A DNA stretch of 64,000 bases from an uncultured Pelagibacteraceae bacterium (GTDB lineage Bacteria > Pseudomonadota > Alphaproteobacteria > Pelagibacterales > Pelagibacteraceae), in the NCBI GenBank assembly GCA_902537665.1, contig CACBCE010000004.1:1-64000 (forward strand), in the 5' to 3' direction. Below the pieces are notes generated by a model. The model was not told the origin of the DNA and ran no database searches. It worked only from the letters and a program-made list of their open reading frames with translations. The position numbers and the translations under genes were made by a program. The stretch's first letter is position 1. Every line of letters begins with the position of its first letter. Positions 1 to 36,911 of this stretch are shown in pieces.

Positions 1-1
1 T

Positions 2-709: not shown

Positions 710-760
710 AATCAGCTATCTTAAATTTGATTAAAAATTTAAAAAAAGTATAAGCATGCT

Positions 761-1774: not shown

Positions 1775-1805
1775 TAAATTTTAAATTTAAAATACTAAAA
1801 TTATA

Positions 1806-3818: not shown

Positions 3819-3832
3819 TTTAAATACTTTTA

Positions 3833-4657
3833 TTAATTTTTATTTTTTACTAAAACAAGCATCTTTTCATTTTTCCAGCTAGCTGTAAAATTATTTATAT
3901 GAGGAGTTTCAATAAAAAATATATTTTCAAATTCTTCTTTTATTTGCAAAATTTGATCATAATACATTTTTTCTTCATAACCTTTTCTATCTTTATAAAT
4001 GTCTTCAATTATTAATATGCTATTTTCATTTAAAAAATCTTTAACGTTATAAATTATATTTATTTGATGATTAAAGAGATGAGTACTGTCATCAATTATA
4101 ATATCAAATTTTTTGTTTGTTTCTTCAAATGCTTTTTTGATACTATTCGGGTCATCTACATTTATTTTGTGATAAAAAGTGTTTGGTAAATTGTCTTTAA
4201 TAGCATTCTCTATTTTATTTTTCTCGAATTCAAAACCGTGGATCTCAGAATTAATAAAAAAATTTCTCCATAATTTTGTAGATGCGTTTTTTTCAATACC
4301 TATTTCTCCAATTATCAAGTTATGCTTTCTTATTTGTGAAAAAAGAAGATAGTATAATCCGGTATAGCCACTTCTGTGCCCGACTAAATTGTAGGGTGAT
4401 TTATTTGTATTAAATTCTCTTCCATCTTTACATAAGTTTGAATTAAAAAAACTTGTATCTACAATTATTTTTCCAAAGCTATTTTCTGAATTTTTGAAAA
4501 CAAGCCTTCTTGTATTATTTGAATAATCAAAATTGAATTTTTTTAAATCTGCTAAATTTGGAACAACCTTGTAATTAAAAAATTTTAAGAACCAAGAAAA
4601 AACTTTAATAAGAAAATAATTCAAATATTTTTGAATTGTTCGGTAAATTTTTTTCAT
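3833..4657 (-). CDS. Class I SAM-dependent methyltransferase
   Basis: The 274-residue protein has a methyltransferase core. IIGEIGIEKNAS is the glycine-rich SAM loop, HGFEFEK has the acidic residue that binds ribose, and FDIIIDDSTHLFNHQ is the acidic post-motif loop seen in macrocin-type and FkbM-like O-methyltransferases. IIDDSTH is a strong family marker because the two Asp usually bind a metal. The N-terminal 30 residues are hydrophobic and basic and could be membrane-associated. Its neighbours are galE and a TylF-type methyltransferase, so a sugar O-methylation role in surface glycan synthesis is likely but unproven. Confidence 0.7.
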   Translation of the reverse strand: MKKIYRTIQKYLNYFLIKVFSWFLKFFNYKVVPNLADLKKFNFDYSNNTRRLVFKNSENSFGKIIVDTSFFNSNLCKDGREFNTNKSPYNLVGHRSGYTGLYYLLFSQIRKHNLIIGEIGIEKNASTKLWRNFFINSEIHGFEFEKNKIENAIKDNLPNTFYHKINVDDPNSIKKAFEETNKKFDIIIDDSTHLFNHQINIIYNVKDFLNENSILIIEDIYKDRKGYEEKMYYDQILQIKEEFENIFFIETPHINNFTASWKNEKMLVLVKNKN

Positions 4658-4681
4658 AAAATTAAAAATTGTTTTACCAGT

Positions 4682-5458
4682 CTATTTTGAATTAATAATC
4701 ATTCTTCCAGTAAAATCAATTTTAAACATGGTAACGTCTTTATTTTCAAAATATTCATCAACTGCTTTTCTTGCACCCTTCCAAAAACCATAATCATCAA
4801 TAATTAAAATCCCGTTCTTCTCCAATAATGGAAATAATATTTCTAATTCTTTTTTTGTACTTGAATACCAATCAGTGTCTAACCTTAATATAGAAATTTT
4901 TTCTGGAAGATTTTGATTGATATTTAACGTTTCCTCTACTGGTCCCTCAACACAAGTAAGGTTATTTATATTTGAGTATTTTTCAAAGTTTTTTTTTACT
5001 TCGTCAATGGAACAATCAGCTATTATAATATTCTTTTTTCTATCTACATTTTTTTTATAAAGTTTATCAAGTATCTTTTTTGAGCTTTTACCATCAAAGG
5101 TTTGATCTATATTTTCAGGTTCAGTCATACCTTTGAATGTATCATAGGCATAGATTTTCTTATTTAATTTATACTTTTCAATGAATTTTTGAAATAAAAT
5201 TAGATTTCCGCCTTTCCATACTCCACACTCTACAAAATCTCCTTTTACATTATTTATTTTTATAAAGTTAATTGCTTTCATCAAAGCGTAAATTCTCTCA
5301 TGACTTGTCATTGTATAATTAGAGCAAATTTTAAATATTTCTTTCTCGAATTCAGTTAATTCAGGATACTCTTTCAAAATATCTATCGGTTCAATTTTAT
5401 GTAAATTATAATTTACTTTTTTAAATAGCGATTTGAATAATCTCATTATTGGATTCAT
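4682..5458 (-). CDS. TylF/MycF-family O-methyltransferase
   Basis: This 258-residue protein matches the macrocin O-methyltransferase (TylF/MycF) family. It has FVECGVWKGG as the SAM-binding loop, YAYDTFKGMTEP, the LRLDTDWYSST segment and the metal-binding LIIDDYGFWKGARKAVDEYF-type end. In characterised members these enzymes methylate sugar hydroxyls with SAM and magnesium. Here the gene sits in a polysaccharide locus, so O-methylation of a surface sugar is the most natural reading. Length agrees with the family. It is 24 bases upstream of the other methyltransferase and co-directional. Confidence 0.85.
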   Translation of the reverse strand: MNPIMRLFKSLFKKVNYNLHKIEPIDILKEYPELTEFEKEIFKICSNYTMTSHERIYALMKAINFIKINNVKGDFVECGVWKGGNLILFQKFIEKYKLNKKIYAYDTFKGMTEPENIDQTFDGKSSKKILDKLYKKNVDRKKNIIIADCSIDEVKKNFEKYSNINNLTCVEGPVEETLNINQNLPEKISILRLDTDWYSSTKKELEILFPLLEKNGILIIDDYGFWKGARKAVDEYFENKDVTMFKIDFTGRMIINSK

Positions 5459-16998: not shown

Positions 16999-18726
16999 AT
17001 GGCAGATATTTTAAAAAAAATTATTGAATATCTTAACAATGATAAATTATTTGAAGCATTTGATTTATGTGAAAATAACAAAGATAATAAGATTGAACAT
17101 CTAATTTTAAATATAAAAGGTGTTATATTTTTTAAACAACAGAAATTTGAACAAGCAAAAAAAGAATTTTTAAAGTCGATAGAACTGGATAAATCTTTTA
17201 TCGATCCATATAAAAATCTATTTAAGTTAAATCTTAAAACTCAAGATTATGATTCTGCTATAAAAAATGGAAAAAAAGTTATAGAACTTGAGATTAAAAA
17301 AAATCCAATTTCATACTTTAATTTAGCTTTAGTTTATGATTTGAAAAAGGATTATAAAAAAGCAGTTGATTTATACAAAATAGTAGAAACTTTAGATTTT
17401 AAAGAAAAAAAAGTCTTGTTTAATAATCTTGCAAAAAGTTTTTTAGGAGATCGAAATATTGATGAAGCTAAAAATTATTATCTTAAAGCATTAGAGTTTG
17501 ACCATAACGATAAGTTAATTGTAAATAATCTTTTAATATTATTCTTAAGGATAGCTGATAAAGAAAATGCTGAACACTTTTTTAATAAAGCACAAGAAAT
17601 CGATAAAGATTATATTGAATTTAAATTGAACAAATCTGAATATTTGTTGTCTCAAAATAAAGTTGAAGATGCAATTAATTGTTTAAAAAAAATAATTAGT
17701 GAGTCTAAAAATTATATTGCTTACACTAAATTAAGTAAAATTTATTCAATGATAGGCGATTTAAAAAAATCTATTGAAATAATTGATCAAGCTATCATTG
17801 AGTATCCTAACCAAAAAGATTTGAAATTTACTAGGGGTATACAACATTTGATTGAGGGAGAATTTGAAAAAGGTTGGGAATTTTACGAATTTAGAGATTT
17901 AGTTATTAAAGACGACTCTTTCGAAAATTTAAAAACTTGGCGAGGTGAAAATTTAAAAAACGCAACTATTTTAGTTACTAGCGAACAAGGAATGGGAGAT
18001 GTTATTCAGTTCTCTAAATTTTTAATAAATTTATCTCCTTTATGCAAAAAGATAGATTTTATACCTTTTGATAAACTTTTACCAATTTTTAAAAAAAAAT
18101 TTAAAAATATCAATGTTTGTAGCAAAAATGAAATTTCTCAAAATAAATATGATTATAAAATTTCTTTAGGTTCTCTTAATAAATATTTTTTTAAGGAAAA
18201 AACTTCAAATTCTTCAGATCTTATTAATTTTGATGAGGATAAAAAAAAATATTGGGAAAAAATTAAAAAAAACAAAAAGAAAAATATTGGTTTAGTCTGG
18301 TCAGGAAATTTTTTTGGTCCAAAAGAACCTTCAAGATCAATTGAATTAAAAAAGTTGAGAGAATTATTGAAATTAGATTTGAATTTTTACTCTTTCCAAA
18401 ATGAAATTTGGGATAGAGACAAAGAATTTTTTCAAAATTCAAATATAATTGATTATAGCAAGGAAAGTTTTGTTGATATAATCAGTATAATTCAAAATTT
18501 AGATTTAGTTATTTCAACAGATACTTTTTTTCTACATTTAGCTTGCATTTGTAATAAAGAAACTTGGGGTTTGATATCAGCTAATTCAGACTGGAGATGG
18601 TATGAATATTACAAATATAATCCTTATAAATCTTTAAAAATTTACAAGCAAACAAATTATAAAAATTGGGATGACATAGTCTATTTAATTCAAAATGATC
18701 TTAAAAATAGATTTTCAATTTTATAG
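16999..18726 (+). CDS. TPR protein with C-terminal glycosyltransferase-like domain
   Basis: The N-terminal half (about residues 1-290) is a run of degenerate tetratricopeptide repeats (e.g. GVIFFKQQKFEQAKKEFLKS). The C-terminal half is glycosyltransferase-like: SEQGMGDVIQFSKFL, GLVWSGNFFG and LVISTDTFFLHLA resemble the GT9/GT41-related domain found fused to TPRs. The plan recalls O-GlcNAc-transferase-like proteins, in which the TPRs bind acceptor proteins. The domain could also act on glycans. No signal peptide is seen. It lies just upstream of a tRNA gene. Confidence 0.75.
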   Translation: MADILKKIIEYLNNDKLFEAFDLCENNKDNKIEHLILNIKGVIFFKQQKFEQAKKEFLKSIELDKSFIDPYKNLFKLNLKTQDYDSAIKNGKKVIELEIKKNPISYFNLALVYDLKKDYKKAVDLYKIVETLDFKEKKVLFNNLAKSFLGDRNIDEAKNYYLKALEFDHNDKLIVNNLLILFLRIADKENAEHFFNKAQEIDKDYIEFKLNKSEYLLSQNKVEDAINCLKKIISESKNYIAYTKLSKIYSMIGDLKKSIEIIDQAIIEYPNQKDLKFTRGIQHLIEGEFEKGWEFYEFRDLVIKDDSFENLKTWRGENLKNATILVTSEQGMGDVIQFSKFLINLSPLCKKIDFIPFDKLLPIFKKKFKNINVCSKNEISQNKYDYKISLGSLNKYFFKEKTSNSSDLINFDEDKKKYWEKIKKNKKKNIGLVWSGNFFGPKEPSRSIELKKLRELLKLDLNFYSFQNEIWDRDKEFFQNSNIIDYSKESFVDIISIIQNLDLVISTDTFFLHLACICNKETWGLISANSDWRWYEYYKYNPYKSLKIYKQTNYKNWDDIVYLIQNDLKNRFSIL

Positions 18727-18795: not shown

Positions 18796-18872
18796 GGCGG
18801 GGTAGCTCAGTTGGTTAGAGCGCGGGACTCATAAGCCCGAGGTCAGTGGTTCGATCCCACTTCCCGCTACCA
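18796..18872 (+). tRNA. tRNA-Met (CAT anticodon), elongator type
   Basis: A complete 77-nt cloverleaf with encoded CCA. The acceptor stem pairs 18796-18802 with the 3' arm (G:U at the outer and inner ends). The D-stem GCTC/GAGC is intact, the anticodon loop is CTCATAA with CAT at 18830-18832, and the T-arm TTCGATC loop has a 5-bp stem. The first pair is G1:U72, not the unpaired C1/A72 of initiators, so it is the elongator or a tRNA-Ile2 (lysidine) species. Position 31-39 of the anticodon stem shows an A-G mismatch. It marks the upstream edge of the AT-rich deoxysugar locus. Confidence 0.93.
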
Positions 18873-18886
18873 TATAAAATTGAAAT

Positions 18887-19594
18887 CTAATTTAAAATTT
18901 TTTTAAGTTTTACCAAACTTATTGAAGGATTTGGTGGAAAAGTTTTTTTTCCAGAAATTTTTTTAATTTTACTATTATATTTTTTGGCAAAATTATAAAC
19001 AGACTGTGTTTTACCACCAATATTAATTATACCTTTTTTATTCAATAATTTTGGAATCATTTTCGCAACATCCTCTTGAAAAATAAAATTAGTTTTAATA
19101 TCGTAAAAGGCTGATTTGTGAATGAATGGTTTTTCACACATTATTATTCTAAGAATTAAGGAATTATCGTACATTTTTACTGCACACTCTCCACCTAGCT
19201 TAGATATTGCATACTTATTAATAGGATTCAAAGAATCCTCCTCTTTATAATTTCCTTTGATACCGGGATACACATATCCTGTTGAAAAATAAATTAGCTT
19301 TATTTTTAATTTATTGCAAATCTTAACAACATTACATGTTCCAATAATGTTAATATCAATACTTTTAGAAACTTCTCTATCATGAATACTCATAGGCCTT
19401 GATAAAGCAGCTACATGTAAAAAATATTTTGGTTTTACTAATTTAAGATATCTTTCCAATGATTTAAGGTTAAGAATATTCATTTTCGTTTTGTTAGGAA
19501 AATAGTAGTTTTCTGAGTTAATAGTCTTTTTCAAAACTTTCGCAAATCTACCATTACCACCACTAACAACGATTTTATTAATATTTTTTTTCAA
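18887..19594 (-). CDS. RmlD-like NAD-dependent sugar reductase (SDR)
   Basis: This 235-residue protein has an N-terminal dinucleotide motif VSGGNGRFAK, a STGYVY strand and the catalytic YAISKLGGE. Shortened RmlD-like SDRs reduce the 4-keto group of a dTDP-4-keto-deoxysugar. Here it lies beside the 2,3-dehydratase, C-methyltransferase and rmlABC genes, so it is the best candidate for the final 4-ketoreductase of the pathway. It is shorter than RmlD (about 290-300) and may have lost part of the substrate domain. It is divergent from the C-methyltransferase gene. Confidence 0.7.
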   Translation of the reverse strand: MKKNINKIVVSGGNGRFAKVLKKTINSENYYFPNKTKMNILNLKSLERYLKLVKPKYFLHVAALSRPMSIHDREVSKSIDINIIGTCNVVKICNKLKIKLIYFSTGYVYPGIKGNYKEEDSLNPINKYAISKLGGECAVKMYDNSLILRIIMCEKPFIHKSAFYDIKTNFIFQEDVAKMIPKLLNKKGIINIGGKTQSVYNFAKKYNSKIKKISGKKTFPPNPSISLVKLKKILN

Positions 19595-19647
19595 TTTTAT
19601 TTAGAATAAATTTTTTTTATATATATAAATATATAATCAAAAGTACA

Positions 19648-20841
19648 ATGAATAAAGTATTTTTAAATTTAGGTCGTCAGCCACTTGCAAATTCTTTTTT
19701 AAAAGATATTAAAGAAAAAACATTAAGAAATGAATTTTTTTATAATTTAAAAATTTGTTTTAATACAAAAAATTATTTGGTTTCTATAAAAAGACCTGTC
19801 AATCCAAAAAAACAATACACTGACAAATATGCTCACAGAGCCTCAGAGTCCAAAACTATGAGATTGGCTTTTAAAGATGTTGCCAAAAAACTATTCAAAA
19901 GGTTCAGGCCAAAAAGGATAATGGAAATAGGAAGTAATGATGGTGTATTTTTAAAAAATTTTAATAAAAAATCTGTAATTGCAGTAGAGCCATGTAAAAA
20001 TTTAGCAAGAATTACTAAAAAATTATTTAAAACATATGATGAATTTTGGAATTTAAGACTGTCTAATAAATTATTAAAAGAAAAAAAAAGTGAGATAGAT
20101 TTAATTTTTTCTGCAAATACAATTTCTCACATACCTAATTTAGAAGAAACATTTAAAGGAATTAGTAAAATATTATCAAAAAATGGGGTCCTTGTAATAG
20201 AAGACCCTTCATTATTAAAAGTCCTTAAAAATAATAGTTATGATCAATTTTATGACGAACATGTTTATGTTTTTTCATCATTATCTATGAAAAATATAGT
20301 CAAAAAATTTGGATTAAGACTTTTTGATATAGAACATTTATCAACACATGGAGGATCAAATCGTTATTATGTATGTAAAGAAGATGGAAAATACAAAAGC
20401 AGCTCAAGACTAAAAAAAGCTTTAAAAGATGAAATTTCTCACAAACTTCATAAAATTGAGAGTTATTTCAAATTTTCCAAAAGAGTAAATTTATCCAGAA
20501 AAAAATTATTCAATTTAATGAAAAGATTGAAGAAAAAAAAAAAGAAAATAATAAGTTATGGTGCAACATATAAATCCACTACAGTTTTTAATTATTGTAA
20601 AATAAATTCAAAAATAATTGATTATGTTACTGATACAACATTTAATAAGCAGGGAAAGTTTACACCAGGTTCACATATCAAAATAATTTCACCAAAGATT
20701 GGAATAAATAAAACAGTGGATTTTGCTTTTTTAGGTGCATGGAACTTTAAAAAAGAGATTTTTATAAAAGAAAAAAATTTTCTTAAAAAAGGTGGAAGAT
20801 TTATCACACATGTTCCAAAAGTAACAATACTTTCTAAATGA
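19648..20841 (+). CDS. Sugar C-methyltransferase (NovU/TylC3-like)
   Basis: The 397-residue protein has the architecture of NDP-sugar C-methyltransferases. It begins with an LGRQPLANSFL segment, has the SAM loop IMEIGSNDGVFLKNF (about 90-104), then DQFYDEHVYVFSS and HGGSNRYYVC, and ends with the C-terminal helper domain. Such enzymes methylate C-3 of dTDP-3-keto or 2-deoxy-4-keto sugars with SAM. The N-terminal zinc-type Cys motifs of the family are largely missing; one Cys (ICFNT) remains. Its stop overlaps the next start by 4 bases, so it is co-translated with the 2,3-dehydratase. Confidence 0.8.
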   Translation: MNKVFLNLGRQPLANSFLKDIKEKTLRNEFFYNLKICFNTKNYLVSIKRPVNPKKQYTDKYAHRASESKTMRLAFKDVAKKLFKRFRPKRIMEIGSNDGVFLKNFNKKSVIAVEPCKNLARITKKLFKTYDEFWNLRLSNKLLKEKKSEIDLIFSANTISHIPNLEETFKGISKILSKNGVLVIEDPSLLKVLKNNSYDQFYDEHVYVFSSLSMKNIVKKFGLRLFDIEHLSTHGGSNRYYVCKEDGKYKSSSRLKKALKDEISHKLHKIESYFKFSKRVNLSRKKLFNLMKRLKKKKKKIISYGATYKSTTVFNYCKINSKIIDYVTDTTFNKQGKFTPGSHIKIISPKIGINKTVDFAFLGAWNFKKEIFIKEKNFLKKGGRFITHVPKVTILSK

Positions 20842-22103
20842 TTAATAAACAAATATCGAAATGGCTGAATCAACAAAGAAAAAAACAATTTTTGATAATA
20901 AATAAAATTGATTTATCGAAGTTGCAAAAATGGGTATTTAATCAGAAAGAAATTTATCATGAGAGTAAAAGATTTTTTAAAATTGTTGGAATCAAAATTA
21001 ATTCTAATTTTTATAAAAAAAAAATTTGGTACCAACCGATAATTGTTCAAAACGAAATTGGTATTTTAGGGGTTATCAAGAATATTAGAACAAATAAATA
21101 CCTTCTTCAGGCAAAAGTAGAACCAGGAAACGTTAATAAAATACAAATTTCTCCCACTGTTCAAGCAACCAAAAGTAATTACTCTAGAATTCACGGAGGA
21201 AAAAATATCCCTTATTTAGAGTATTTCAAAAAAAGAAATAAAAATTTTTCTCTACAAACGGAACAGGCTTTTAGATATTTTAATAAAAAAAACTCAAATA
21301 TAGTTTCTTATGTATCAAAAAAAATTGATATTGATAAGAAATTTAGATGGTTTTCAAAAATAGAAATCAATAATTTATTAAAGGAAAAAAATTTGATAAA
21401 CATGGATACTTTGTCTGTTTTCTCATCTTTTATCAATAAAAAAAAAATTGATTTTGCACTCAATAAAAAAAAAGATATTTTGAAGTGGAAAAATTCACTA
21501 AATAAAAAATTTTTTCTTAAAAATAATATTATTAGTTTAAATTCAATTAAAGACTGGAAATTTACAAAAAAAAAGATTTACCATCGGTCTCACGACTATT
21601 TTTCAATTATTGGTATTAAAGTTAAAACTAATGAAAGAGAGATAACTGGTTGGCACCAACCAATCATACAAGGATCAAAAATGGCTTTTGCAGGATACTT
21701 GATTAAAAAATTTAATAATACTAATCATTATTTGTGCAGATATATATTAAAGCCAGGTTCAAAAGAGAGTACATATACATGTTCTGTAAATACATCTAAA
21801 TTTAAAAATTATAAAAAAAATAAAGATCTTACAGATTTTCAAAAAAAATTAATTTCTAATTATTTTGTTAATTCGAAAATTGAAACTCTTTATGATAATA
21901 TTTTATCCGATGAAGGAGGAAGATTTTATCATTCACAAATTAGATACATGGCTTGTAAATTGAATAAAAAAGAAATTATAAAATTACCAGAAAATTATAT
22001 TTGGTTATCACATAATCAGGTGGTTGATTTTATAAAAGAACAAAAAATTGATATTGAAGCAAGGCTACTCTTTGGTATTCTTAATCTTAAGGAAACAATT
22101 TAA
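20838..22103 (+). CDS. NDP-hexose 2,3-dehydratase
   Basis: This removes the C-2 hydroxyl of a dTDP-4-keto-6-deoxyhexose, the first committed step to 2,6-dideoxysugars. The protein shows the typical internal duplication. The first half has KIWYQPIIVQNEIGILG and the second has TGWHQPIIQGSKMAFAG, each with a W-x-Q-P-I-I core and each preceded by a YHxS.xFFxIxGIK stretch. Length (421) suits the family. It overlaps the C-methyltransferase stop by 4 bases and is followed directly by the 3-ketoreductase candidate. Confidence 0.88.
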   Translation: MINKQISKWLNQQRKKQFLIINKIDLSKLQKWVFNQKEIYHESKRFFKIVGIKINSNFYKKKIWYQPIIVQNEIGILGVIKNIRTNKYLLQAKVEPGNVNKIQISPTVQATKSNYSRIHGGKNIPYLEYFKKRNKNFSLQTEQAFRYFNKKNSNIVSYVSKKIDIDKKFRWFSKIEINNLLKEKNLINMDTLSVFSSFINKKKIDFALNKKKDILKWKNSLNKKFFLKNNIISLNSIKDWKFTKKKIYHRSHDYFSIIGIKVKTNEREITGWHQPIIQGSKMAFAGYLIKKFNNTNHYLCRYILKPGSKESTYTCSVNTSKFKNYKKNKDLTDFQKKLISNYFVNSKIETLYDNILSDEGGRFYHSQIRYMACKLNKKEIIKLPENYIWLSHNQVVDFIKEQKIDIEARLLFGILNLKETI

Positions 22104-23012
22104 TTGAAAGTTTTAATTTTAGGTTATTCTAACATAGTTAGAAGAAGAATTTTAAGTGTATTTAAAGAAAAAAAAATACAATTGTTTATAGCTTCAAAAT
22201 CACACAAAAATCAAATTCAGGGTGTTAAAAAACAATTTAAATCATACGAAATTGCAATTAAAAAATGTAAACCAAATTTAGTTTATATTTCTTTACCAAA
22301 TTCAAAACATTTTTATTGGGCAAAAAAATCTTTGAATAATAAATGTAATACCATTGTAGATAAGCCAATTACAGTTAACAGAAAACAGTTAAATGAATTA
22401 ATAAATTTATCAAAAAAAAATAACAAACTTTTGACTGAGTCAACTTTCTTTAATTATCACTTGCAAATGAAAAAAATCATAAAAATTCACAAGAAGGACA
22501 AATTCAAAAGTATTAATGCTAATTTTATAATTCCAAAACCAACTAAAAAAAGCATTTTGATGTCAAAAAAACTTCAAGGTGGAGTTTTGATGGATATGGG
22601 ACCTTATATTTCTGCTATACCAAGATTATTTAATCTAAAAAGATTAGTTAGCAAAAAAATTGAGATTAAAAAAAATAGAGAAAATTTAATTACATCCATT
22701 AAATTTACCTTTAATTTCAAGGAGGGTAAATATAATGGAACTTTTAAATTTGGTGGCAAATATAAAAATCAAATTAAGATTTCAAATAAATATAATTCAA
22801 GTATCATTAAAAGAGTTTTTTCACCACCAGACGATGAAAACTTAAATTTAAAATTAGTTACAAAAAAAAGAAAACAAAATATTAAAATCAAAAAAGATAA
22901 TTGTTTTAGAAATTTTTTTAATGAAATTTTAAAAATTATTAATAAAAAAAAATATAGTTTTTATTATAAAAGAATGGAACATGATGTAATTTTTAGATCA
23001 AACCTAACTTAA
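22104..23012 (+). CDS. Gfo/Idh/MocA-family oxidoreductase (3-ketoreductase candidate)
   Basis: This 302-residue dehydrogenase of the Gfo/Idh/MocA type begins KVLILGYSNIVRRRI (a degenerate Rossmann motif), has LVYISLPNSKHFYWAKKSL and the conserved lysine in IVDKPIT, and a later GGVLMDMGPY. In deoxysugar pathways this family reduces the 3-keto group made by the 2,3-dehydratase. It starts at a TTG that abuts the dehydratase stop, so it is translationally linked to it. Its end overlaps the convergent rmlC by 9 bases. The bases here are nearly all A/T. Confidence 0.75.
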   Translation: MKVLILGYSNIVRRRILSVFKEKKIQLFIASKSHKNQIQGVKKQFKSYEIAIKKCKPNLVYISLPNSKHFYWAKKSLNNKCNTIVDKPITVNRKQLNELINLSKKNNKLLTESTFFNYHLQMKKIIKIHKKDKFKSINANFIIPKPTKKSILMSKKLQGGVLMDMGPYISAIPRLFNLKRLVSKKIEIKKNRENLITSIKFTFNFKEGKYNGTFKFGGKYKNQIKISNKYNSSIIKRVFSPPDDENLNLKLVTKKRKQNIKIKKDNCFRNFFNEILKIINKKKYSFYYKRMEHDVIFRSNLT

Positions 23013-23534
23013 AGGACCATCTATATAATGATTTAAGTTATGTGCATATTTGTCTTTTAAACTAATATTTGGTTTTTTAACAGGCCATTTAATTTTAAGT
23101 ATTGGATCATTATATTTAAGTGACCTTTCATTCTTTGGTGATCTATATTCAGTGCAGCTATAACATACAATGTTCTCTTTTTTTAAAGTTAAAAATCCGT
23201 GTGCAAATCCTGGAGGTATAAATACTGAGGAACAATTATTTTCATTTAATCTTATTGAAAAATGCTGTCCAAAAGTTTGAGAGTTTTTTCTCATATCTAC
23301 TGCTACATCAAAAATTTCACCTTTAATTACAGAAATTAATTTTCCTTGTGGTTTTTTTATTTGAAAGTGTAAACCTCTAAGAACATTTTTTTTTGATACT
23401 GATGTGATTTGAAATTTAAACTTTTTTTTAATTAGTTTCTCTAAAACCAATTCTCTAAGATATCCTCTCTTATCATTATGCTTTATTCCATTTAAAACAA
23501 CAAGACCTTTAAATTTAGTTTTTTTTATTCTCAT
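23004..23534 (-). CDS. rmlC: dTDP-4-dehydrorhamnose 3,5-epimerase
   Basis: This 176-residue cupin has the RmlC landmarks: KRGYLRE, NVLRGLHFQ with the catalytic His region, GEIFDVAVDMRKNSQTFGQ, and FIPPGFAHGF. It inverts C-3 and C-5 (or only C-5 with a 3-methylated substrate) of dTDP-4-keto-deoxyhexoses to give L-sugars. Length fits (about 180). The gene overlaps the DUF4422 gene by 4 bases and lies downstream of rmlB-rmlA on the minus strand, in opposite orientation to the dehydratase operon. Confidence 0.92.
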   Translation of the reverse strand: MRIKKTKFKGLVVLNGIKHNDKRGYLRELVLEKLIKKKFKFQITSVSKKNVLRGLHFQIKKPQGKLISVIKGEIFDVAVDMRKNSQTFGQHFSIRLNENNCSSVFIPPGFAHGFLTLKKENIVCYSCTEYRSPKNERSLKYNDPILKIKWPVKKPNISLKDKYAHNLNHYIDGPLS

Positions 23535-24331
23535 TTTCTAATATCATGAAACATTATAGGCCATTCCAAATAGTTCGTATTTTCTTTGAACCAATAAGAT
23601 AAAAATCTCTCAGCTAAAAAGGCGTATATACGAGTTTTTCCATAACCATCTAGATTAAAACCAAAAATATCCTCACATTTTCTCAGCCATTCGAAAAGCA
23701 CTTTATAGTAATTATCCATAATTTTTTTTGATTTAGTTACAAACATATTTCCTTGATTAAATGAGGTTTGAGTTCTTATAAATTTTGAAAATTTCTCTTT
23801 ATCGTTTAAATTTAGTTGTCCAATTGCTTTATCTAATATTCCATTGCCATGAAACATATCAAATTGGAACCTTATATTTCTAAATTTCTTATTTAAAATT
23901 ATTTTTGGATTTCGAAAAAAGGCTTTTTTTCCATATTTCAAAACTTTAATCCATTTTATTTCTTCAAGATTTAACTTGTCTCCAATTACAACATCATAAT
24001 TATTCCATTCTTCAGGAATCTCTTTAATTACCATATCCTCAAAAGTTTTACCAAAATTTATTTTTTTTTTCCAAAATCTTCTATATCCACAAAATCCTAT
24101 CCATTCATTATCAGGTATTTTATGAAGTAAATTTTTCCAAAGATAATAGTGAAAAGTGTATTCACCATAAAATTTATTTTTATTTGCAATATTTTCTCCA
24201 TCTTTGTCTGTAATCCAGTCATCTGAAAAGTTAGAGTCACCTAATCCTACGGGCAAATATCCTAAATTTGATATTTTTTTAAAAAGATTGTTATCTATGC
24301 TAATACAATACATATATTTTAATTTAGCCAT
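23531..24331 (-). CDS. DUF4422 glycosyltransferase-like protein
   Basis: The 266-residue protein matches the DUF4422 pattern: a Y-x-E-Y-x-F-x-Y-Y-L-W-K-N segment, WIGFCGYRRFW, a MFHGNGILDKAI region and a C-terminal FLAERFLSYWF. The family occurs in polysaccharide loci and is thought to transfer sugars, but its activity is not firmly known. It is placed between rmlA and rmlC in one transcription unit, so it probably uses the dTDP-deoxysugar as donor. I see no membrane segment. Confidence 0.75.
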   Translation of the reverse strand: MAKLKYMYCISIDNNLFKKISNLGYLPVGLGDSNFSDDWITDKDGENIANKNKFYGEYTFHYYLWKNLLHKIPDNEWIGFCGYRRFWKKKINFGKTFEDMVIKEIPEEWNNYDVVIGDKLNLEEIKWIKVLKYGKKAFFRNPKIILNKKFRNIRFQFDMFHGNGILDKAIGQLNLNDKEKFSKFIRTQTSFNQGNMFVTKSKKIMDNYYKVLFEWLRKCEDIFGFNLDGYGKTRIYAFLAERFLSYWFKENTNYLEWPIMFHDIRK

Positions 24332-24344
24332 CTTAGAAATGAAA

Positions 24345-25208
24345 TTATATTAGTTTTTTAATGTAATCAGAATAAGAGCAATTTCCATAAAACATAATAG
24401 CATTTTCAAGTTGTTTTTTATTTATCCACTTATTATTAAACGCAATCTCCTCTAAACAAGCAATTTTGAATCCTTGTCTATTTTCAATTGCAGATACAAA
24501 GGCACTTGTTTTATAAAAATCTTCAATAGATCCCGTATCTAACCATGCCCCACCTCTTCCAATCAATTCCGCTGATAATTTTTTATTTCTCAGATAGAAA
24601 TTTAATAAATCTACAATTTCTAATTCACCCCTTTTAGATGGTTTAAGTTTTTTTGCATAATTACATACTTTCTTATCAAAAAAGTATAATCCAGTAATCG
24701 CTAAATCAGATAAGAATTTTTTTGGTTTTTCTTTAATACTTTTTATTTTTTTACCCAAAACTTTTGCCACTCCAAAACTTTCTGGATTATTTACTCTATG
24801 GAGCAAAACTTTAGCTCCATTTTTTAATTTAGAACAATTTTGAAGAATTTTTGATAAGTTTTGCCCATAAAAAAAATTATCACCTAATATTAAACAAACA
24901 TTTTGGTTATTAATAAATTTTTCACCTAATATAAATGCTTCAGGCAAACCATTTGGGTTTTTTTGTTCAAGATATTCAATTTTGATACCAAAATTTTTTC
25001 CATCTGGAATTATCTTTTTATATTGAGGTAATTGACCTTTATTAACTATAATTAAAACATCTTTTATACCTGCAAGCATTAAAATAGATAATGGATAGAA
25101 TATTAGTGGTTTATCATGAATAGGAAGCAATTGTTTATTTACAGCTTTTGTTAAAGGACTCATTCTTGTTCCTTTACCTCCAGCTAAAATAATTCCTTTT
25201 TTAATCAT
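24345..25208 (-). CDS. rmlA: Glucose-1-phosphate thymidylyltransferase
   Basis: RmlA makes dTDP-glucose from dTTP and glucose-1-phosphate. The start has GIILAGGKGTRMSPLTKAVNKQL (nucleotide-binding motif, shown in part), followed by LLPIHDKPLIFYPL, then LGDNFFYG and a GGAWLDTGSIEDFY segment near residue 230. The length of 287 agrees with the short RmlA group. The start codon overlaps the rmlB stop by 4 bases, which implies coupled translation of the first two steps. Confidence 0.94.
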   Translation of the reverse strand: MIKKGIILAGGKGTRMSPLTKAVNKQLLPIHDKPLIFYPLSILMLAGIKDVLIIVNKGQLPQYKKIIPDGKNFGIKIEYLEQKNPNGLPEAFILGEKFINNQNVCLILGDNFFYGQNLSKILQNCSKLKNGAKVLLHRVNNPESFGVAKVLGKKIKSIKEKPKKFLSDLAITGLYFFDKKVCNYAKKLKPSKRGELEIVDLLNFYLRNKKLSAELIGRGGAWLDTGSIEDFYKTSAFVSAIENRQGFKIACLEEIAFNNKWINKKQLENAIMFYGNCSYSDYIKKLI

Positions 25209-26218
25209 TTTTTACCTAATCTATTTATAATATCTTTTTTTGATAGTGATTTATAGTATGACTTGTTCTTATAATACCAATTAAGCGTGAATTCTATTCC
25301 TTTAGAAAAATTTGTTTTTGGAGTCCATTTGAGCTTTTTTCTAATTTTATTGCTATTAAGAGCATATCTAACATCATGGCCGGGTCGATCCTTGACAAAA
25401 TTAATTTTTACTTTTTTGCCAAGTCGAATAATTTTTTTTGATTTTTTTAAAAGCTCTTTTGTGACTTGTAAGTTACTTAAGTTTTTATTAGATCCAATAT
25501 TATAAAATTCTCCCAATTTTCCTTTGTGAAATACTTTTATTAATGCTTCACAATGATCCTTTACATATATCCATTCTCTTGAATTAGTTCCTTTTCCATA
25601 TATTGGAAGAGGTCTATTATTCATTATATTATATATTAGTTTTGGGATTAATTTCTCTGGGTGTTGCTTTGGACCATAATTATTAGAGCAATTTGTAACT
25701 ATTGCAGGTAAGTTATAAGTCCTAATGTATGAACTTACTAAATGATCAGATGCAGCTTTACTAGCAGCATAAGGTGAGCTTGGTTTATAAGAATGATTTT
25801 CATCTGTTCTTCCACTTAAAACATCACCATAAACTTCATCAGTTGAAATATGGATTAACTTAGATTTATTTTTTTTTGAAAAATTTTTGAAACATTCTAG
25901 TAGATTGTATACACCTACAACATTACTTTTAATAAAACTCCCTGGATTATCAATGGATCTATCCACATGCGTTTCAGCAGCTAAATTAAAAACTCCTGAT
26001 GGTTTGTATTTCATTAGTATTTTCTCGATTTTCTTATTCGCGATATCAAGCTTTAAAAATTTATAATTTCTAGATCTTTTAAAATCTTTCGTATTATATA
26101 AATTTGATGAATAAGTTCCTTTATCAATATTAATGACGTAAAAATTTTTTTTTAATAATAAATCTATTAAATTACTTCCTATAAATCCTAATCCACCGGT
26201 AACTATGATTTTTTTCAT
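25205..26218 (-). CDS. rmlB: dTDP-glucose 4,6-dehydratase
   Basis: RmlB converts dTDP-glucose to dTDP-4-keto-6-deoxyglucose with bound NAD. The protein has GGLGFIGSN at the N-terminus, FNLAAETHVDRSI, the dehydratase triad HISTDEVYGDV with Asp-Glu, and the catalytic YAASKAASDH, then NNYGPKQHPEKLIP. Length 337. It is the first gene of the rmlB-rmlA-DUF4422-rmlC unit on the minus strand, divergent from a glycosyltransferase gene across a short promoter-bearing gap. Confidence 0.95.
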   Translation of the reverse strand: MKKIIVTGGLGFIGSNLIDLLLKKNFYVINIDKGTYSSNLYNTKDFKRSRNYKFLKLDIANKKIEKILMKYKPSGVFNLAAETHVDRSIDNPGSFIKSNVVGVYNLLECFKNFSKKNKSKLIHISTDEVYGDVLSGRTDENHSYKPSSPYAASKAASDHLVSSYIRTYNLPAIVTNCSNNYGPKQHPEKLIPKLIYNIMNNRPLPIYGKGTNSREWIYVKDHCEALIKVFHKGKLGEFYNIGSNKNLSNLQVTKELLKKSKKIIRLGKKVKINFVKDRPGHDVRYALNSNKIRKKLKWTPKTNFSKGIEFTLNWYYKNKSYYKSLSKKDIINRLGKK

Positions 26219-26227
26219 TTTTTGATT

Positions 26228-26256
26228 TTTACATTAAAAATAAATTTTAGTATAGT
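26228..26256 (+). promoter_or_regulatory. Putative promoter of the GT2 gene
   Basis: TTTACA (26228-26233), a 17-base spacer and TATAGT (26251-26256) predict a start near 26263. This is downstream of the possible TTG start at 26222 and 10 bases before the ATG at 26273, so it supports the ATG as the true start. Confidence 0.55.
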
Positions 26257-26272
26257 CGAGTATACACATATT

Positions 26273-27145
26273 ATGTCAATAACTAGGCAAAACCTTTCAG
26301 TGATCATTGTTAGTTATAAAAGTGATTACGTAATTGAAAATTGTATTAATTCTATTCATAGTGAAATTGAAATAGTTGTAGTTGATAATTCAAACAATGA
26401 TCAATTAAAAGAAAAAATTGAAACTAAGTATAAAAATGTCAAATATATTTTATCAAAAGAAAATTTAGGTATGGGTGCAGGAAATAATTTAGGTATCAAA
26501 AATGTTAATAAAGATTTTGTTTTAATTTTAAATCCAGATGTTACCTTAGAAAAAAGTTCTATAGACGAGATGATTATAGCATCACAAGAAATTGAAAACT
26601 TTGGAATTATTGCTCCTCTCTCAGATAAAAGTGAATATCCCAATTATACTTTAAAAAAGATGAATGATTTTGATCCAATAAAACCTTTCAAGGTTAAAAG
26701 TGTTGATGGATATGCAATGCTTCTAAATTTGAAGAAATTGAAAAAATTAAATGGTTTTTATTTTTTTGATGAGAATTTTTTTTTATACCTCGAGAATGAG
26801 GACTTATGTTTGAGATTAGAGAAGAATGATGAAAATATTTACATAGTACCGAAATCAAGAATTCATCATTTAGGAGGAAAGGCTGTAGATCCAAAATATA
26901 AAAATGAAATTGAATATTTAAGAAATTGGCATTGGATGTGGTCTAAATTTTATTTTAATAAAAAACATTATGGCTATTTGATCGCATTATTTAAAGTTTT
27001 TAAAAATTTGATTTCTGCAAAAATAAAATTTTTTTATTATTTAATTACATTCAATACTTTTAAAAGAAAGATTTATCAGATGAGATTATTAGGTTTGATG
27101 AGCTCTATGATAGGAAAAAATTCTTATTATAGGCCTAACATTTGA
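26273..27145 (+). CDS. Glycosyltransferase family 2 protein
   Basis: The start is put at the ATG 26273 because the earlier TTG frame lies inside the promoter and adds residues the family lacks. The protein has a GT-A core: SVIIVSYKSD at the N-terminus, VVDNSNND, LGMGAGNNLGIKN and the metal-binding LNPDV (DxD-like), with a downstream FFLYLENEDLCLRL segment typical of rhamnosyltransferase-like GT2 enzymes. The C-terminal part is basic and hydrophobic. It is likely to transfer the deoxysugar made by the adjacent rml genes. Confidence 0.83.
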   Translation: MSITRQNLSVIIVSYKSDYVIENCINSIHSEIEIVVVDNSNNDQLKEKIETKYKNVKYILSKENLGMGAGNNLGIKNVNKDFVLILNPDVTLEKSSIDEMIIASQEIENFGIIAPLSDKSEYPNYTLKKMNDFDPIKPFKVKSVDGYAMLLNLKKLKKLNGFYFFDENFFLYLENEDLCLRLEKNDENIYIVPKSRIHHLGGKAVDPKYKNEIEYLRNWHWMWSKFYFNKKHYGYLIALFKVFKNLISAKIKFFYYLITFNTFKRKIYQMRLLGLMSSMIGKNSYYRPNI

Positions 27146-27149
27146 AAAT

Positions 27150-27677
27150 TTAATGACCAGGAAATTCAATCAAATTTTCTACCCGGTATCCTTTTTTAAT
27201 TAAACTGTAAGAACCATTAAGATCAAAAAGATTTATAACAAAAATAAATCCAGCAACTTTTCCTTTTGAAATTTCTACAAGTTTCGCTGCAGCATGTGCA
27301 GTACCACCAGTGGCAATTAAATCATCAATAATCAAAATAGAGTCCTTTTCATTTATAGAATCTTTATGAACTTCAATCGTAGCCTTCCCGTACTCTAATT
27401 CAAAATCAACAGAGTGTACATCAGCTGGTAATTTATCTTTTTTTCTTAACATTATGAATGGTTTTTTTAAAATATAAGAAACAGCAGAGGCAAAAACAAA
27501 TCCTCTAGACTCAATTGCAGCAATTTTAGTAAACTTCATTTTTTTTGATCTTTCAACAATTTGATCAATTGCTTCTGAAAAAGCTTTCTCATTTTTAATG
27601 AGTGTTGTTATATCTCTAAATAAAATACCTTTTTTTGGATAATCTGGGATAGATCTAATAAAGTCTTTTAAATTCAT
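27150..27677 (-). CDS. apt: Adenine phosphoribosyltransferase
   Basis: Apt salvages adenine to AMP with PRPP. The 175-residue protein has FRDITTLIKN, the PRPP-binding loop ILIIDDLIATGGTA, and a KIAAIESRGF segment. Length is standard. It is divergent from mtnP by about 40 bases, which fits the adenine released from methylthioadenosine by MtnP being returned to AMP. The end is 4 bases from the convergent glycosyltransferase stop. Confidence 0.94.
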   Translation of the reverse strand: MNLKDFIRSIPDYPKKGILFRDITTLIKNEKAFSEAIDQIVERSKKMKFTKIAAIESRGFVFASAVSYILKKPFIMLRKKDKLPADVHSVDFELEYGKATIEVHKDSINEKDSILIIDDLIATGGTAHAAAKLVEISKGKVAGFIFVINLFDLNGSYSLIKKGYRVENLIEFPGH

Positions 27678-33771: not shown

Positions 33772-35871
33772 ATGAAAAAAGTGAAAAATAATAACATTTA
33801 TATAAATCATATAACTTTAATAATTATTTCTTTTTTAGCCGGTTTATATTTATTAGGATTTGATAATTTAAATTTCTTAAATAAAAACTGGCTTTATTCG
33901 GGTGATTTGTCTCAATACCAAATAGGGTGGGAATTTTTTAGAAATGATAGTTGGAGATTTCCACTGGGTTTTAATCCTAATTATGGATTAGAATTTGGTA
34001 CTAGTATTGCATATTCAGACTCTATTCCTTTATTTGCATTTATATTTAAATTATTTAAAAATTTTTTGCCAGAAAATTTTCAATATTTTTCACTGTGGAT
34101 CGTTTTAATTATTTATCTTCAATTATTATTTTCTTACTTAATTATTTTTAATTTAACTAAAAACTTTTATTTTTCATCAATAAGTATGTTTTTTTTTATT
34201 TTGGCTCCAGTATTTTTAAATAGAAGCGGAATACATTTAAGTCTAGCGGGACATTGGATAATACTTTTTTCATTTTATATAGAGTCAAGTAATTCAAAAT
34301 TAAAACCAATGCTACGAGGTTTCAACTTAATTCTCTCTAGTTTAATTTTTTTTTATTTTACAATGATGTTAATTATCTTGAATTCATTAACTTATTTGTT
34401 TTTATTAATTAAAAAAAAATCTTTATATAAAAATATATTTAAGGAAATTATATTAATTTATCCGTTACTTTTTTTAACAATGTATATTGTAGGTTACTTT
34501 ACGATTAGACCTGAGGATGGTTTGGGCGGGGGTTATGGATATTATAATTTAAATCTAAACAGTCTTTTCAATCCAAACGGTTTTAATTTTTCTGGTTCTT
34601 TTAATTGGTCTGTATTAATGCCAAAACTGCCTTTCAATAATGGTGAGTATGAGGGTTTTTCCTACTTAGGAATAGGTGGTTTTTTTCTTTTATTTTTTGC
34701 AATTTTAAGTTTTTTTAAAAATATAAGAGAATTTTTTATTTCTAGAAAAGAAATATTATTAATTTTTTTTGTATTTTTAGCATTATCAATCTCACAAAAT
34801 ATAAATTTTGGAGAAATTAATATTTTATCAATTGATCTTAATAATTATATTTTAGGAGTTTTAAGTACCATCAGATCAAGTGGCAGACTAATATGGCCAG
34901 TCTATTATTTAATTTTAATTTTAGGTATCTTTTTTATATTTAATTATTTTTCAGGAAAAAAAAGATTTATTATTTTAATATCTTTATTATTTATTCAATT
35001 AATAGATTTATCCAGTGGATTAAAACAATATTATAAAGGCAATCAGTATAATTATATTTCAAAAAATGTGTTCAAAAATGAAGATAATTTTTGGAACAAT
35101 TTATCTTTTAAAATAACTACGTTACGATCAATCAAATTTAGAAATCAGTCTGATTTATATTATGATTTAAGAAATGTTTTTTTGAATTATAATTTTAAAA
35201 AAACAGATATAGTTTATCTTGCAAGATATAACAGAAAAAATACAGCCCTAAATAATTATAAATTGATAGAAAGTTTTTTAAATAAAGAAATGGATATTTT
35301 TAAAGAAACGGCATTTTTAACCAAAGATTTAAATGTAGTAAGAAATATCCATTTTTTATATGGAAAAAATTTATTTTATTATTTTCGAAATAATATTTGG
35401 ATAATAACAAGCCAATATATAGTAAAACCAAACAATATAGAGAGTATTAAAGATAATTTTGAAATTAAAAACATTGTTTTAAATAAAAAAATAAATTTTA
35501 TTAATTCCAAAAATTTAAATTATGGTTTTGGCTGGGAAAAGCAATCTAGAGGATTAGCCTCGGATGGTAATTATTCTTCCATTATATTTAAAATAGATAA
35601 TAAAAATTGTTCAGAAAATTTTTATTTAAAATTGAATGTAGAAAATTATTATAATGATATTAAAGGTGATTTTAATTTATATTTAAACAATAAGATTTTA
35701 TCAAAGAAAAATTTAAATCGTATTCCTTTAAAGATAAATTGTGACAATATACAAAATTATTATATTCTTGAGTTTAAATATCAAGGACCAATTTCATTAA
35801 GAGAATTAAATAGAGGACTTAATCATTCTAAAAGATCTATAATACTAAAAGAAATTGAAATTATAAGTTAA
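33772..35871 (+). CDS. DUF6311-like multi-pass membrane protein
   Basis: The 699-residue protein has a hydrophobic first 420 residues with about ten membrane segments and a hydrophilic C-terminal part. It begins with WLYSGDLSQYQIGWEFFRND and SIAYSDSIPLFAF, which resemble the DUF6311 group (GT-C-like membrane glycosyltransferases). A glycosyltransferase GT2 gene follows on the same strand. It may therefore transfer a lipid-linked sugar, but there is no proof and no clear catalytic motif apart from the loop Asp residues. Confidence 0.6.
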   Translation: MKKVKNNNIYINHITLIIISFLAGLYLLGFDNLNFLNKNWLYSGDLSQYQIGWEFFRNDSWRFPLGFNPNYGLEFGTSIAYSDSIPLFAFIFKLFKNFLPENFQYFSLWIVLIIYLQLLFSYLIIFNLTKNFYFSSISMFFFILAPVFLNRSGIHLSLAGHWIILFSFYIESSNSKLKPMLRGFNLILSSLIFFYFTMMLIILNSLTYLFLLIKKKSLYKNIFKEIILIYPLLFLTMYIVGYFTIRPEDGLGGGYGYYNLNLNSLFNPNGFNFSGSFNWSVLMPKLPFNNGEYEGFSYLGIGGFFLLFFAILSFFKNIREFFISRKEILLIFFVFLALSISQNINFGEINILSIDLNNYILGVLSTIRSSGRLIWPVYYLILILGIFFIFNYFSGKKRFIILISLLFIQLIDLSSGLKQYYKGNQYNYISKNVFKNEDNFWNNLSFKITTLRSIKFRNQSDLYYDLRNVFLNYNFKKTDIVYLARYNRKNTALNNYKLIESFLNKEMDIFKETAFLTKDLNVVRNIHFLYGKNLFYYFRNNIWIITSQYIVKPNNIESIKDNFEIKNIVLNKKINFINSKNLNYGFGWEKQSRGLASDGNYSSIIFKIDNKNCSENFYLKLNVENYYNDIKGDFNLYLNNKILSKKNLNRIPLKINCDNIQNYYILEFKYQGPISLRELNRGLNHSKRSIILKEIEIIS

Positions 35872-35963
35872 ACTAATATTTTGTTATAGTAATTAATAAA
35901 TAGTTTATAAAACTCCAAATTTTTTGATTTTGATATTTTTAATATATGGATTATGAATAGTTG

Positions 35964-36911
35964 ATGAAGTTTTTTTTTATAATACCAGTTTTTAATGATG
36001 AAAAAAGTTTGGTAAAACTTACTAAAGAAATTAAAGATATCCTTTATAAAGACTCTAATGAGTTAAACTTTATTATTGTAAATGATGCATCAGATGAAAA
36101 AATAAATAATATCTCAAATATTCCGAATGCTCATTTTATAAATTTAAAATCAAATCAAGGTAATCAAAAATCCATATACGTTGGATTAAACTATTTAAAT
36201 GAACTTGACGTGAATTATGACTATTTGATAGTGATGGACTCTGATGGAGAAGACAATCCCAAGGATATTTTTAAGCTAATTGATAAATGTAAAGAAAATA
36301 ATGATAAAAAAATCATTTTTGCATCAAGACTGAGAAGAAACGAGGGTTTGATTTTCAAATTTTCTTACTTTTGTTACAAACTAATTTTTAGATTTTTAAC
36401 TGGAAAAAAACTTAATTTTGGAAATTTTAGTTGTATTCCTAAACAATATGTTAAAAATATTGTTAATCTTCCGACAATATCTTTTCATTATTCTGCAAGC
36501 ATATTAAAATCAAAAATTCCTTATTTATCAGAGCCATGCGACAAAGGAAAAAGATACGATGGTGACTCAAAAATGAAATTAAACAGTCTTCTGCTTCATG
36601 CTCTAAAATCTTTATCAATATATTATGAGGAAATACTTATCAGATTTCTAGTTTTATCTACTGCAGGAATTTTAATTGGTTTATTTTCAATAATATTAAT
36701 TTTTTTCAATAAATTTTTTGCAACTTTTGTGCTTATTGGCTGGTCATCAAATATGGTAATAGGTTTAACAATCATTACTATAATATTTTTATTTATGTTC
36801 TTCTCTTGTCTATTAATTTTACTAAATAAAAATATTTATAGAGAAAACACTGAAAATTTCAAAAATTATAAATTTTTAATTGGAACAATTGAAAATGCAA
36901 ATCATGATTAA
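35964..36911 (+). CDS. Glycosyltransferase family 2, membrane-anchored (DPM1-like)
   Basis: A TTG and an ATG start are adjacent; ATG at 35964 is chosen. The N-terminal domain has FIIPVFNDEKSL, IIVNDASDE, NQGNQKSIYVGLNYL and the metal site VMDSDGEDNP, like dolichyl/undecaprenyl-phosphate sugar synthases. Two or three membrane segments at the C-terminus (about 230-300) anchor it, as in polyprenol-phosphate mannosyl/glucosyl transferases. It follows the multi-pass DUF6311-like gene, so the pair could make and use a polyprenol-linked sugar. Confidence 0.8.
   Translation: MKFFFIIPVFNDEKSLVKLTKEIKDILYKDSNELNFIIVNDASDEKINNISNIPNAHFINLKSNQGNQKSIYVGLNYLNELDVNYDYLIVMDSDGEDNPKDIFKLIDKCKENNDKKIIFASRLRRNEGLIFKFSYFCYKLIFRFLTGKKLNFGNFSCIPKQYVKNIVNLPTISFHYSASILKSKIPYLSEPCDKGKRYDGDSKMKLNSLLLHALKSLSIYYEEILIRFLVLSTAGILIGLFSIILIFFNKFFATFVLIGWSSNMVIGLTIITIIFLFMFFSCLLILLNKNIYRENTENFKNYKFLIGTIENANHD

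Follow-up and report, generated by a model that had tools for sequence, protein, structure and literature searches.

Antibiotics are the main known source of branched 2,6-dideoxysugars. In actinomycetes, mycarose and epivancosamine arise from one diketo intermediate, by reduction and by amination, respectively. The dTDP-L-mycarose pathway is fed by RmlA and RmlB and is carried out by TylX3, TylC1, TylC3, TylK and TylC2. The enzymes EvaA-EvaE make dTDP-L-epivancosamine, with EvaB at the aminotransferase step, and KijD1, KijD10 and TcaB9 act in amino or nitro sugar routes of actinomycetes. Here, we describe a gene cassette of an uncultured Pelagibacteraceae bacterium (SAR11), which fills the slot between a tRNA-Met gene and apt. 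The whole stretch of DNA analysed (the window) comprises 64,000 nucleotides (GenBank assembly GCA_902537665.1, contig CACBCE010000004.1, positions 1 to 64,000). The cassette is exchangeable and quite probably directs the formation of a dTDP-3-C-methyl-2,6-dideoxyhexose of the mycarose type. This type of pathway is already known. We did not find the SAR11 setting, the swapping of the cassette or the half-size forms of its dehydratase described, and no report of a mycarose-type pathway in SAR11 was found among the open-licence papers listed by our searches.

The cassette possesses the same enzyme classes as the dTDP-L-mycarose pathway, the comparison being made by class only. Unlike that pathway, it is found in a streamlined marine alphaproteobacterium and in a swappable slot, and it encodes a short reductase and a methyltransferase without Cys pairs. 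Moreover, the host genome has no PS-DH or EryCIII-like domain, the only two natural-product families searched. Among solved structures, EvaA from the dTDP-L-epivancosamine pathway is nearest to the dehydratase, and an aminotransferase in three related loci (L033, L035 and L037; L and G numbers denote the stretches and genomes compared) parallels EvaB. In contrast, the window has a ketoreductase and no aminotransferase. Therefore, a neutral sugar is predicted. Enzymes of branched nitrosugar pathways are the closest solved relatives of the methyltransferase (TcaB9 and 5t64, which we take to be KijD1) and of the reductase (3rbv, presumably KijD10).

In Coxiella, the C-methylated 6-deoxysugar virenose occurs in lipopolysaccharide, and the available part of PMC3539893 proposes a TylC3-like methyltransferase for it. 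Virenose is not 2-deoxy, and this part of the source gives no 2,3-dehydratase step, which is predicted here. In the same order as our host, the SAR11 O-chain cluster is likewise a replaceable island of sugar genes; the available parts of two sources place it between 23S and 5S ribosomal RNA (rRNA) genes (PMC11898729; hypervariable region (HVR) 2 in PMC2217521). In genomospecies Ib.4, this island is relocated beside tRNA-Val, tRNA-Met and a peptidoglycan gene cluster (PMC11898729, available part), and HVR4 of HTCC1062 has tRNA genes at its borders (PMC2217521, available part). Gene function is stated in the available part of PMC11898729 not to have been analysed, and the words dehydratase, deoxy, methyltransferase and rhamnose are absent from its main text. 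The slot was rejected as a standard 23S-5S O-chain cluster, since no rRNA is present in the window, which has a single tRNA, or in the rest of the contig rightwards (L072 and L073). Leftwards, the contig stops after 18.8 kb, so that a link of the slot to the Ib.4 arrangement is just conceivable.

Organization of the cassette

The host genome consists of 1.04 Mb in 26 contigs and is 81% complete. Frame translation of the window gave eight open genes in 18887-26218, the extent given in an earlier first-pass annotation. All genes named in that annotation were open at their positions and matched the families assigned to them (Pfam, NCBIfam). However, the unit is longer: with its GT2 glycosyltransferase gene, the cassette spans 18887-27145. 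It fills the tRNA-Met to apt interval, starting 14 bases past tRNA-Met and stopping 4 bases short of apt. The methyltransferase, dehydratase and ketoreductase genes sit as a trio between rmlD and rmlC, in the orientation opposite to that of the rml genes. The G+C content is 24.1% in the cassette and 32.7% and 30.9% in the neighbouring stretches. The features are as follows (SDR, short-chain dehydrogenase/reductase).

18796..18872, + strand: tRNA-Met (cat), left border of the slot (ARAGORN; Rfam)
18887..19594, - strand: short RmlD-like SDR, predicted dTDP-4-keto-hexose 4-reductase, TylC2/EvaE role (PF04321, 1.2e-24; YAISK)
19648..20841, + strand: predicted sugar 3-C-methyltransferase, TylC3/EvaC role (PF08484, 3.7e-45; PDB 5t64, TcaB9, 4rv9)
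20838..22103, + strand: predicted NDP-hexose 2,3-dehydratase with two modules, TylX3/EvaA role (PF03559 twice, 1.4e-88; EvaA 4j7g)
22104..23012, + strand: Gfo/Idh/MocA reductase, predicted 3-ketoreductase, TylC1/KijD10 role (GFO_IDH_MocA, 3.1e-12; 3rbv)
23004..23534, - strand: RmlC, predicted 5- or 3,5-epimerase, TylK/EvaD role (PF00908, 7.4e-50; TIGR01221)
23531..24331, - strand: DUF4422 protein, candidate glycosyltransferase (PF14393, 8.5e-25)
24345..25208, - strand: RmlA, glucose-1-phosphate thymidylyltransferase (NTP_transferase, 2.3e-61; TIGR01207, 357.8 bits)
25205..26218, - strand: RmlB, dTDP-glucose 4,6-dehydratase (TIGR01181, 407.1 bits)
26222..27145, + strand: GT2 glycosyltransferase, candidate transferase, right end of the cassette (PF00535, 4e-16)
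27150..27677, - strand: apt (adenine phosphoribosyltransferase), right border of the slot (named from its own sequence)

Enzymes of the predicted pathway

The dehydratase matched PF03559 in two stretches (296 bits, above the curated cut-off) and is encoded by the only PF03559 gene found in the host genome. In a sequence search of solved structures, EvaA (4j7g) was its sole match (1.9e-52). The two W-x-Q-P-I-I motifs reported in the first-pass annotation are present as WYQPII and WHQPII. In the available part of PMC8987622, two pocket A residues of EvaA, E139 and E190, are highlighted as likely catalytic, and pocket B is described as an inactive leftover of a duplication. Alignment placed matching glutamates in the first module of the window dehydratase. 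Both were conserved in all 12 N-terminal modules aligned from two-module proteins, among which L032 is apparently the same contig as L040.

The methyltransferase matched Methyltransf_14 (PF08484) with 154 bits (cut-off 23.5) and the S-adenosylmethionine-binding domain PF13489 with 71.9 bits (cut-off 27). Its matches among solved structures were 5t64 (9.7e-67), TcaB9 (6e-61) and 4rv9 (8.7e-51); 5t64 is labelled a sugar 3-C-methyltransferase and 4rv9 a D-mycarose 3-C-methyltransferase. In a sequence alignment, Y76, H181, Y222, E224 and H225 of TcaB9 were all matched in the window protein. We take these five to be residues that were mutated in TcaB9, numbered presumably as chain index minus 2. 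A second PF08484 C-methyltransferase is encoded in the host genome beyond the window (G000:C9:14452-14928).

For the Gfo protein, the best of 11 solved-structure matches was the sugar 3-ketoreductase 3rbv (7.6e-11). The Lys (in DKP) and Tyr (in GPY) of 3rbv are aligned in the window protein, and the same two residues are conserved in the aligned Gfo relatives, among those listed. Compared with characterised enzymes, the dehydratase, methyltransferase and Gfo protein all match solved relatives from deoxysugar pathways. The first-pass annotation would have been refuted by membership of the dehydratase or the methyltransferase in another family; both match the families named there, with the implicated residues conserved.

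RmlB and RmlC scored above their equivalog cut-offs (TIGR01181, 407.1 vs 365.1 bits; TIGR01221, 172.7 vs 155.75 bits). RmlA scored 3 bits below its own (TIGR01207, 357.8 vs 360.65 bits). The RmlD-like protein (235 aa) retains the SDR motif YAISK and, judged by its sequence, is a non-canonical relative of RmlD; no RmlD above the equivalog cut-off was found anywhere in the 81% complete host genome. One PF00908 (RmlC) match and one over-cut-off RmlB are present in this genome, both in the cassette. If the missing fifth of the genome holds no other copies, the rmlB and rmlC of the cassette must serve the branched sugar.

Gene identity, arrangement, recurrence and conserved residues were observed; the reactions and their order we infer from characterised families, together with the product, its stereochemistry and its destination. 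RmlA and RmlB would form dTDP-4-keto-6-deoxyglucose, from which the 2,3-dehydratase would strip the 2-OH to give a 3,4-diketo-2,6-dideoxy sugar. The Gfo/Idh/MocA enzyme would then reduce C3, and the methyltransferase would transfer a methyl group from S-adenosylmethionine onto C3. The RmlC protein would invert C5; because a methylated C3 has no proton, it could invert C5 only. The short RmlD-like enzyme would reduce C4. Finally, a surface glycan would receive the sugar through the GT2 protein, in the window perhaps also through the DUF4422 protein. This destination is suggested by the GT2 protein, the replaceable slot and the lack of the two natural-product domains mentioned above.

This enzymatic reading is supported because a homologue of the right class is present for each step, the checked residues are conserved, the set recurs in relatives and the 81% complete genome shows no second RmlC or full-score RmlB. 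The first-pass interpretation is partly supported: its enzyme classes stand, and the actual product, its stereochemistry, its arrival at the cell surface and an effect on phages and grazers are predictions.

Distribution of the cassette and its two branches

A survey of SAR11 genomes was also made. Of 397 genomes surveyed within the order, 27 have PF03559. In a sample of 385 genomes from the class, it occurs in 4, of which one falls below the cut-off and one is the host genome itself. Among the 27 genomes, 11 encode a two-module protein (~420 aa) and 16 a single-module protein (open frames of 235-263 aa). The C-methyltransferase gene adjoins the dehydratase gene in all 11 two-module genomes and in 5 of the 16 single-module genomes (G316, G365, G066, G358 and G266). 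The remaining 11 single-module genomes have no C-methyltransferase gene beside the dehydratase gene, and three of them (G031, G152 and G160) have no PF08484 match at all.

The full local enzyme set is also present in 6 of the 10 other two-module loci, counting L036, whose dehydratase is broken. A seventh locus, L034, has the set but lacks RmlA and RmlB in its vicinity; the RmlB of that genome lies on a different contig. Of the 9 two-module loci in the tRNA-Met/apt slot, the window counted, 8 have a GT2 match beside RmlB (the exception is L037). DUF4422 was found in 3 of the 11 two-module loci (the window, L038 and L041) and is not a constant member of the cassette. Both proteins had been named as candidate transferases in the first-pass annotation, and both match their families.

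A Gfo reductase gene follows the dehydratase gene in 8 of the 11 two-module loci. In the other three, it is replaced by a gene for a DegT-type aminotransferase, called by Pfam in L033 and L035 and by sequence inspection in L037. The best solved match of the L033 aminotransferase was glutamine--scyllo-inositol transaminase (7b0d, 3e-98), followed by QdtB (3.5e-71) and then perosamine synthetase (1.1e-51). QdtB is a sugar 3-aminotransferase. The position of amination in the aminotransferase-type cassettes is inferred by such sequence comparison. The L033 cassette also contains an Acyltransferase-3 plus SGNH protein (L033:13348-15405), and O-acylation of the sugar or glycan is a possible role of this protein.

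Several observations weigh against the proposed pathway. The RmlD-like protein fails the RmlD equivalog TIGR01214 (81.6 vs 224.05 bits); 15 of its relatives are similarly short (234-257 aa). The Cys pairs found near the N terminus of solved relatives are absent from the methyltransferase, which scores 28.7 bits against a cut-off of 31.3 for PF08421, a putative zinc-binding N-terminal domain that is accessory and not catalytic. The Cys pairs are missing too in its relatives among those listed, of which L048 retains two Cys. At 45 bits, the Gfo protein matches 3rbv modestly. The part missing from the 81% complete genome could contain a second RmlC or RmlB. Predicted structural models, built from two-row alignments (window and L032), were unusable and were discarded (pLDDT confidence 50.5 for the RmlD-like protein and 28.9 for the methyltransferase). 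In one of the 11 two-module genomes (G201/L036), the dehydratase is broken: a stop or frameshift interrupts it (L036:9353-10614), and the other cassette genes are still matched. This break is either a sequencing error or decay. Lastly, 230 of the 397 genomes of the order have PF08484, so bare co-occurrence tells little. Because PF08484 is so widespread, adjacency rather than co-occurrence is the telling point. The gene grouping is beyond chance, because the dehydratase gene adjoins the C-methyltransferase gene in every two-module genome.

Half-size dehydratases

The single-module protein L043:8977-9684 matched the first module of EvaA with 120 bits and the second with 72 bits. Of the 16 single-module proteins, 10 were aligned, and every one had both candidate catalytic glutamates. 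In a tree of 49 rows, N-terminal, C-terminal and single modules each fell on one side of a branch (98/95, 90/75 and 97/92, respectively), the C group being short of the program's star. Three rows from alphaproteobacteria other than SAR11 formed long branches. Copies and near-copies (L003, L005-L008, L020, L023, L025, L026, L028 and L032) and the broken L036 were left out of this tree. Recent truncation was rejected as the source of the single-module proteins on account of these separate branches. The single modules seem either to predate the duplication or to have lost a module long ago.

In L043, L044, L050 and L052, a single-module dehydratase gene belongs to one run, GT2-rmlB-rmlA-rmlC-rmlD-methyltransferase-dehydratase-Gfo. 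In an alphaproteobacterium of another order (L067), a single-module dehydratase gene, rmlB, rmlA, Gfo and a gene judged aminotransferase-like from its sequence are near one another, and no methyltransferase match was found in this locus. The half-size dehydratases would be the simplest form of the family, and they would test the EvaA-derived idea that the second module is a dispensable leftover.

The tRNA-Met/apt slot and its alternative contents

We searched apt in 61 genomes of the genus. A full-length gene was found in 45 (the host included), a partial one in 2, weak matches only in 2 and none in 12. For the comparison of the slot, 20 stretches were chosen by hand, four of which are shortened by a contig end. 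No dehydratase match was found in any of them. The slot is empty in four (L080, L084, L087 and L089), where the 3' end of tRNA-Met is a few bases from apt. Three others (L079, L086 and L091) contain rmlD-rmlC-rmlA-rmlB, with rmlD and rmlC adjacent. The L092 slot has rmlC, rmlA, rmlB and GT2 without an RmlD-like match; L077, L078 and L083 have rmlA and rmlB; L093 has rmlA, rmlB and GT2; and L081 has rmlA, rmlB and a 35% relative of the methyltransferase. The L082 stretch, which has no tRNA, carries rmlA, rmlB, GT2 and DUF4422. A GT2 gene and an epimerase-like gene are present in L074 and L075. Short inserts without a match are found in L076, L085 and L090, and L088 is too short to judge.

Thus, the cassette is a swappable insert, a point missed in the first-pass annotation, the alternatives being rhamnose-type, amino-sugar-type or empty. 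By its gene order, the window cassette looks like a rhamnose-type set with a three-gene module set between rmlD and rmlC. A second slot lies beside a permuted transfer-messenger RNA gene (L034:4491-4801; L035:11275-11585). In L034 its content is a ketoreductase-type set, in L035 an aminotransferase-type core; the over-cut-off RmlB of both genomes is on another contig.

We tentatively propose, with slightly more doubt than confidence, that the tRNA-Met/apt slot of SAR11 works as a cartridge system. An rmlDCAB rhamnose set would become mycarose-type through the three-gene module between rmlC and rmlD, or vancosamine-type through exchange of the ketoreductase for an aminotransferase. For a single glycan, strains would thereby switch between three kinds of sugar: 6-deoxy, branched 2,6-dideoxy and branched amino. 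Elsewhere, a half-size dehydratase, whose lineage may predate the EvaA module duplication, would perform the same reaction.

Exchange of cassette genes

Rows of RmlA and RmlB below 44% identity were removed before tree building. Different kinds of cassette are intermingled in the RmlA and RmlB trees, in which the ketoreductase-type group requires 3 and 5 changes, respectively. In the RmlC and RmlD trees, this group requires one change each, with weak support (78/53 and 58/24). The window and L038 are 98% identical in RmlA and 70% in RmlB; between the window and L033, RmlB identity is 86%.

We found no exact repeat of at least 8 bases between 18831-18890 (the 3' part of tRNA-Met) and 27081-27200. 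No relatives of the dehydratase were found in phages, or in viral contigs by a search that reaches close relatives only. A mobile-element origin was therefore rejected, there being no sign of a classic att duplication and no phage or viral relative of the dehydratase. With neither a repeat at the tRNA end nor a viral relative found, exchange most likely proceeds by homologous recombination within the flanks and within rmlBA. Among plasmids, 85 records match the dehydratase, all below 60% identity, and 75 are from Streptomyces. The matches from outside the actinomycetes include one Serratia plasmid and one Hoeflea plasmid.

Alternative products and destinations

These trees bear on the strongest alternative, in which two sugars share one pool: RmlABC and the RmlD-like protein still make dTDP-L-rhamnose, and the module diverts part of the 4-keto intermediate. 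The branched sugar would then be completed by the same epimerase and reductase acting loosely, or by another 4-reductase encoded elsewhere. The module-less rmlDCAB sets in the same slot (L079, L086 and L091) show that a rhamnose-type route is open to RmlC and RmlD of these types, and the RmlA and RmlB types are common to several cassette kinds. However, the RmlC and RmlD of ketoreductase-type cassettes group apart from the rhamnose-type ones, albeit with the weak support given above, and we regard this alternative as unlikely.

The predicted mycarose-type sugar might also be attached to a protein instead of a polysaccharide, for example through the adjacent tetratricopeptide repeat (TPR) gene at 16999-18726, left of tRNA-Met. 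The product of this gene has N-terminal TPR repeats and a C-terminal part without a family match. The TPR protein adjoins the slot in the window and in L038, the only two-module locus with a close homologue at the same place, but the gene is unmatched in the other nine two-module stretches. Attachment to a protein is accordingly improbable.

About equally improbable is a 6-deoxy-3-C-methyl product of the virenose or evalose type, for which the dehydratase would be inactive or otherwise used. The route proposed for virenose in Coxiella, with its TylC3-like methyltransferase and no 2,3-dehydratase named in the available part of PMC3539893, offers a precedent. Against it, both candidate catalytic Glu residues are kept in 12 of 12 N-terminal modules aligned and the frame is intact in 10 of 11 two-module genomes. 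Least probable of all is a sugar destined, in actinomycete fashion, for a secreted small molecule: the 2,3-dehydratases named in the available part of PMC8987622 belong to antibiotic-type pathways, but the two natural-product domain families searched gave no match in the genome, and the cassette's own transferase candidates are the GT2 and DUF4422 proteins.

Other regions of the window

At the left end of the window (1-5458), a further stretch of low G+C content contains several sugar epimerase-like and methyltransferase-like genes, as judged from sequence. By the same means, an AT-rich gene for a large membrane protein and a glycosyltransferase-like gene were recognised at 33772-36911, where the G+C content is 20% at 34-36 kb. 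This region is possibly a further surface island.

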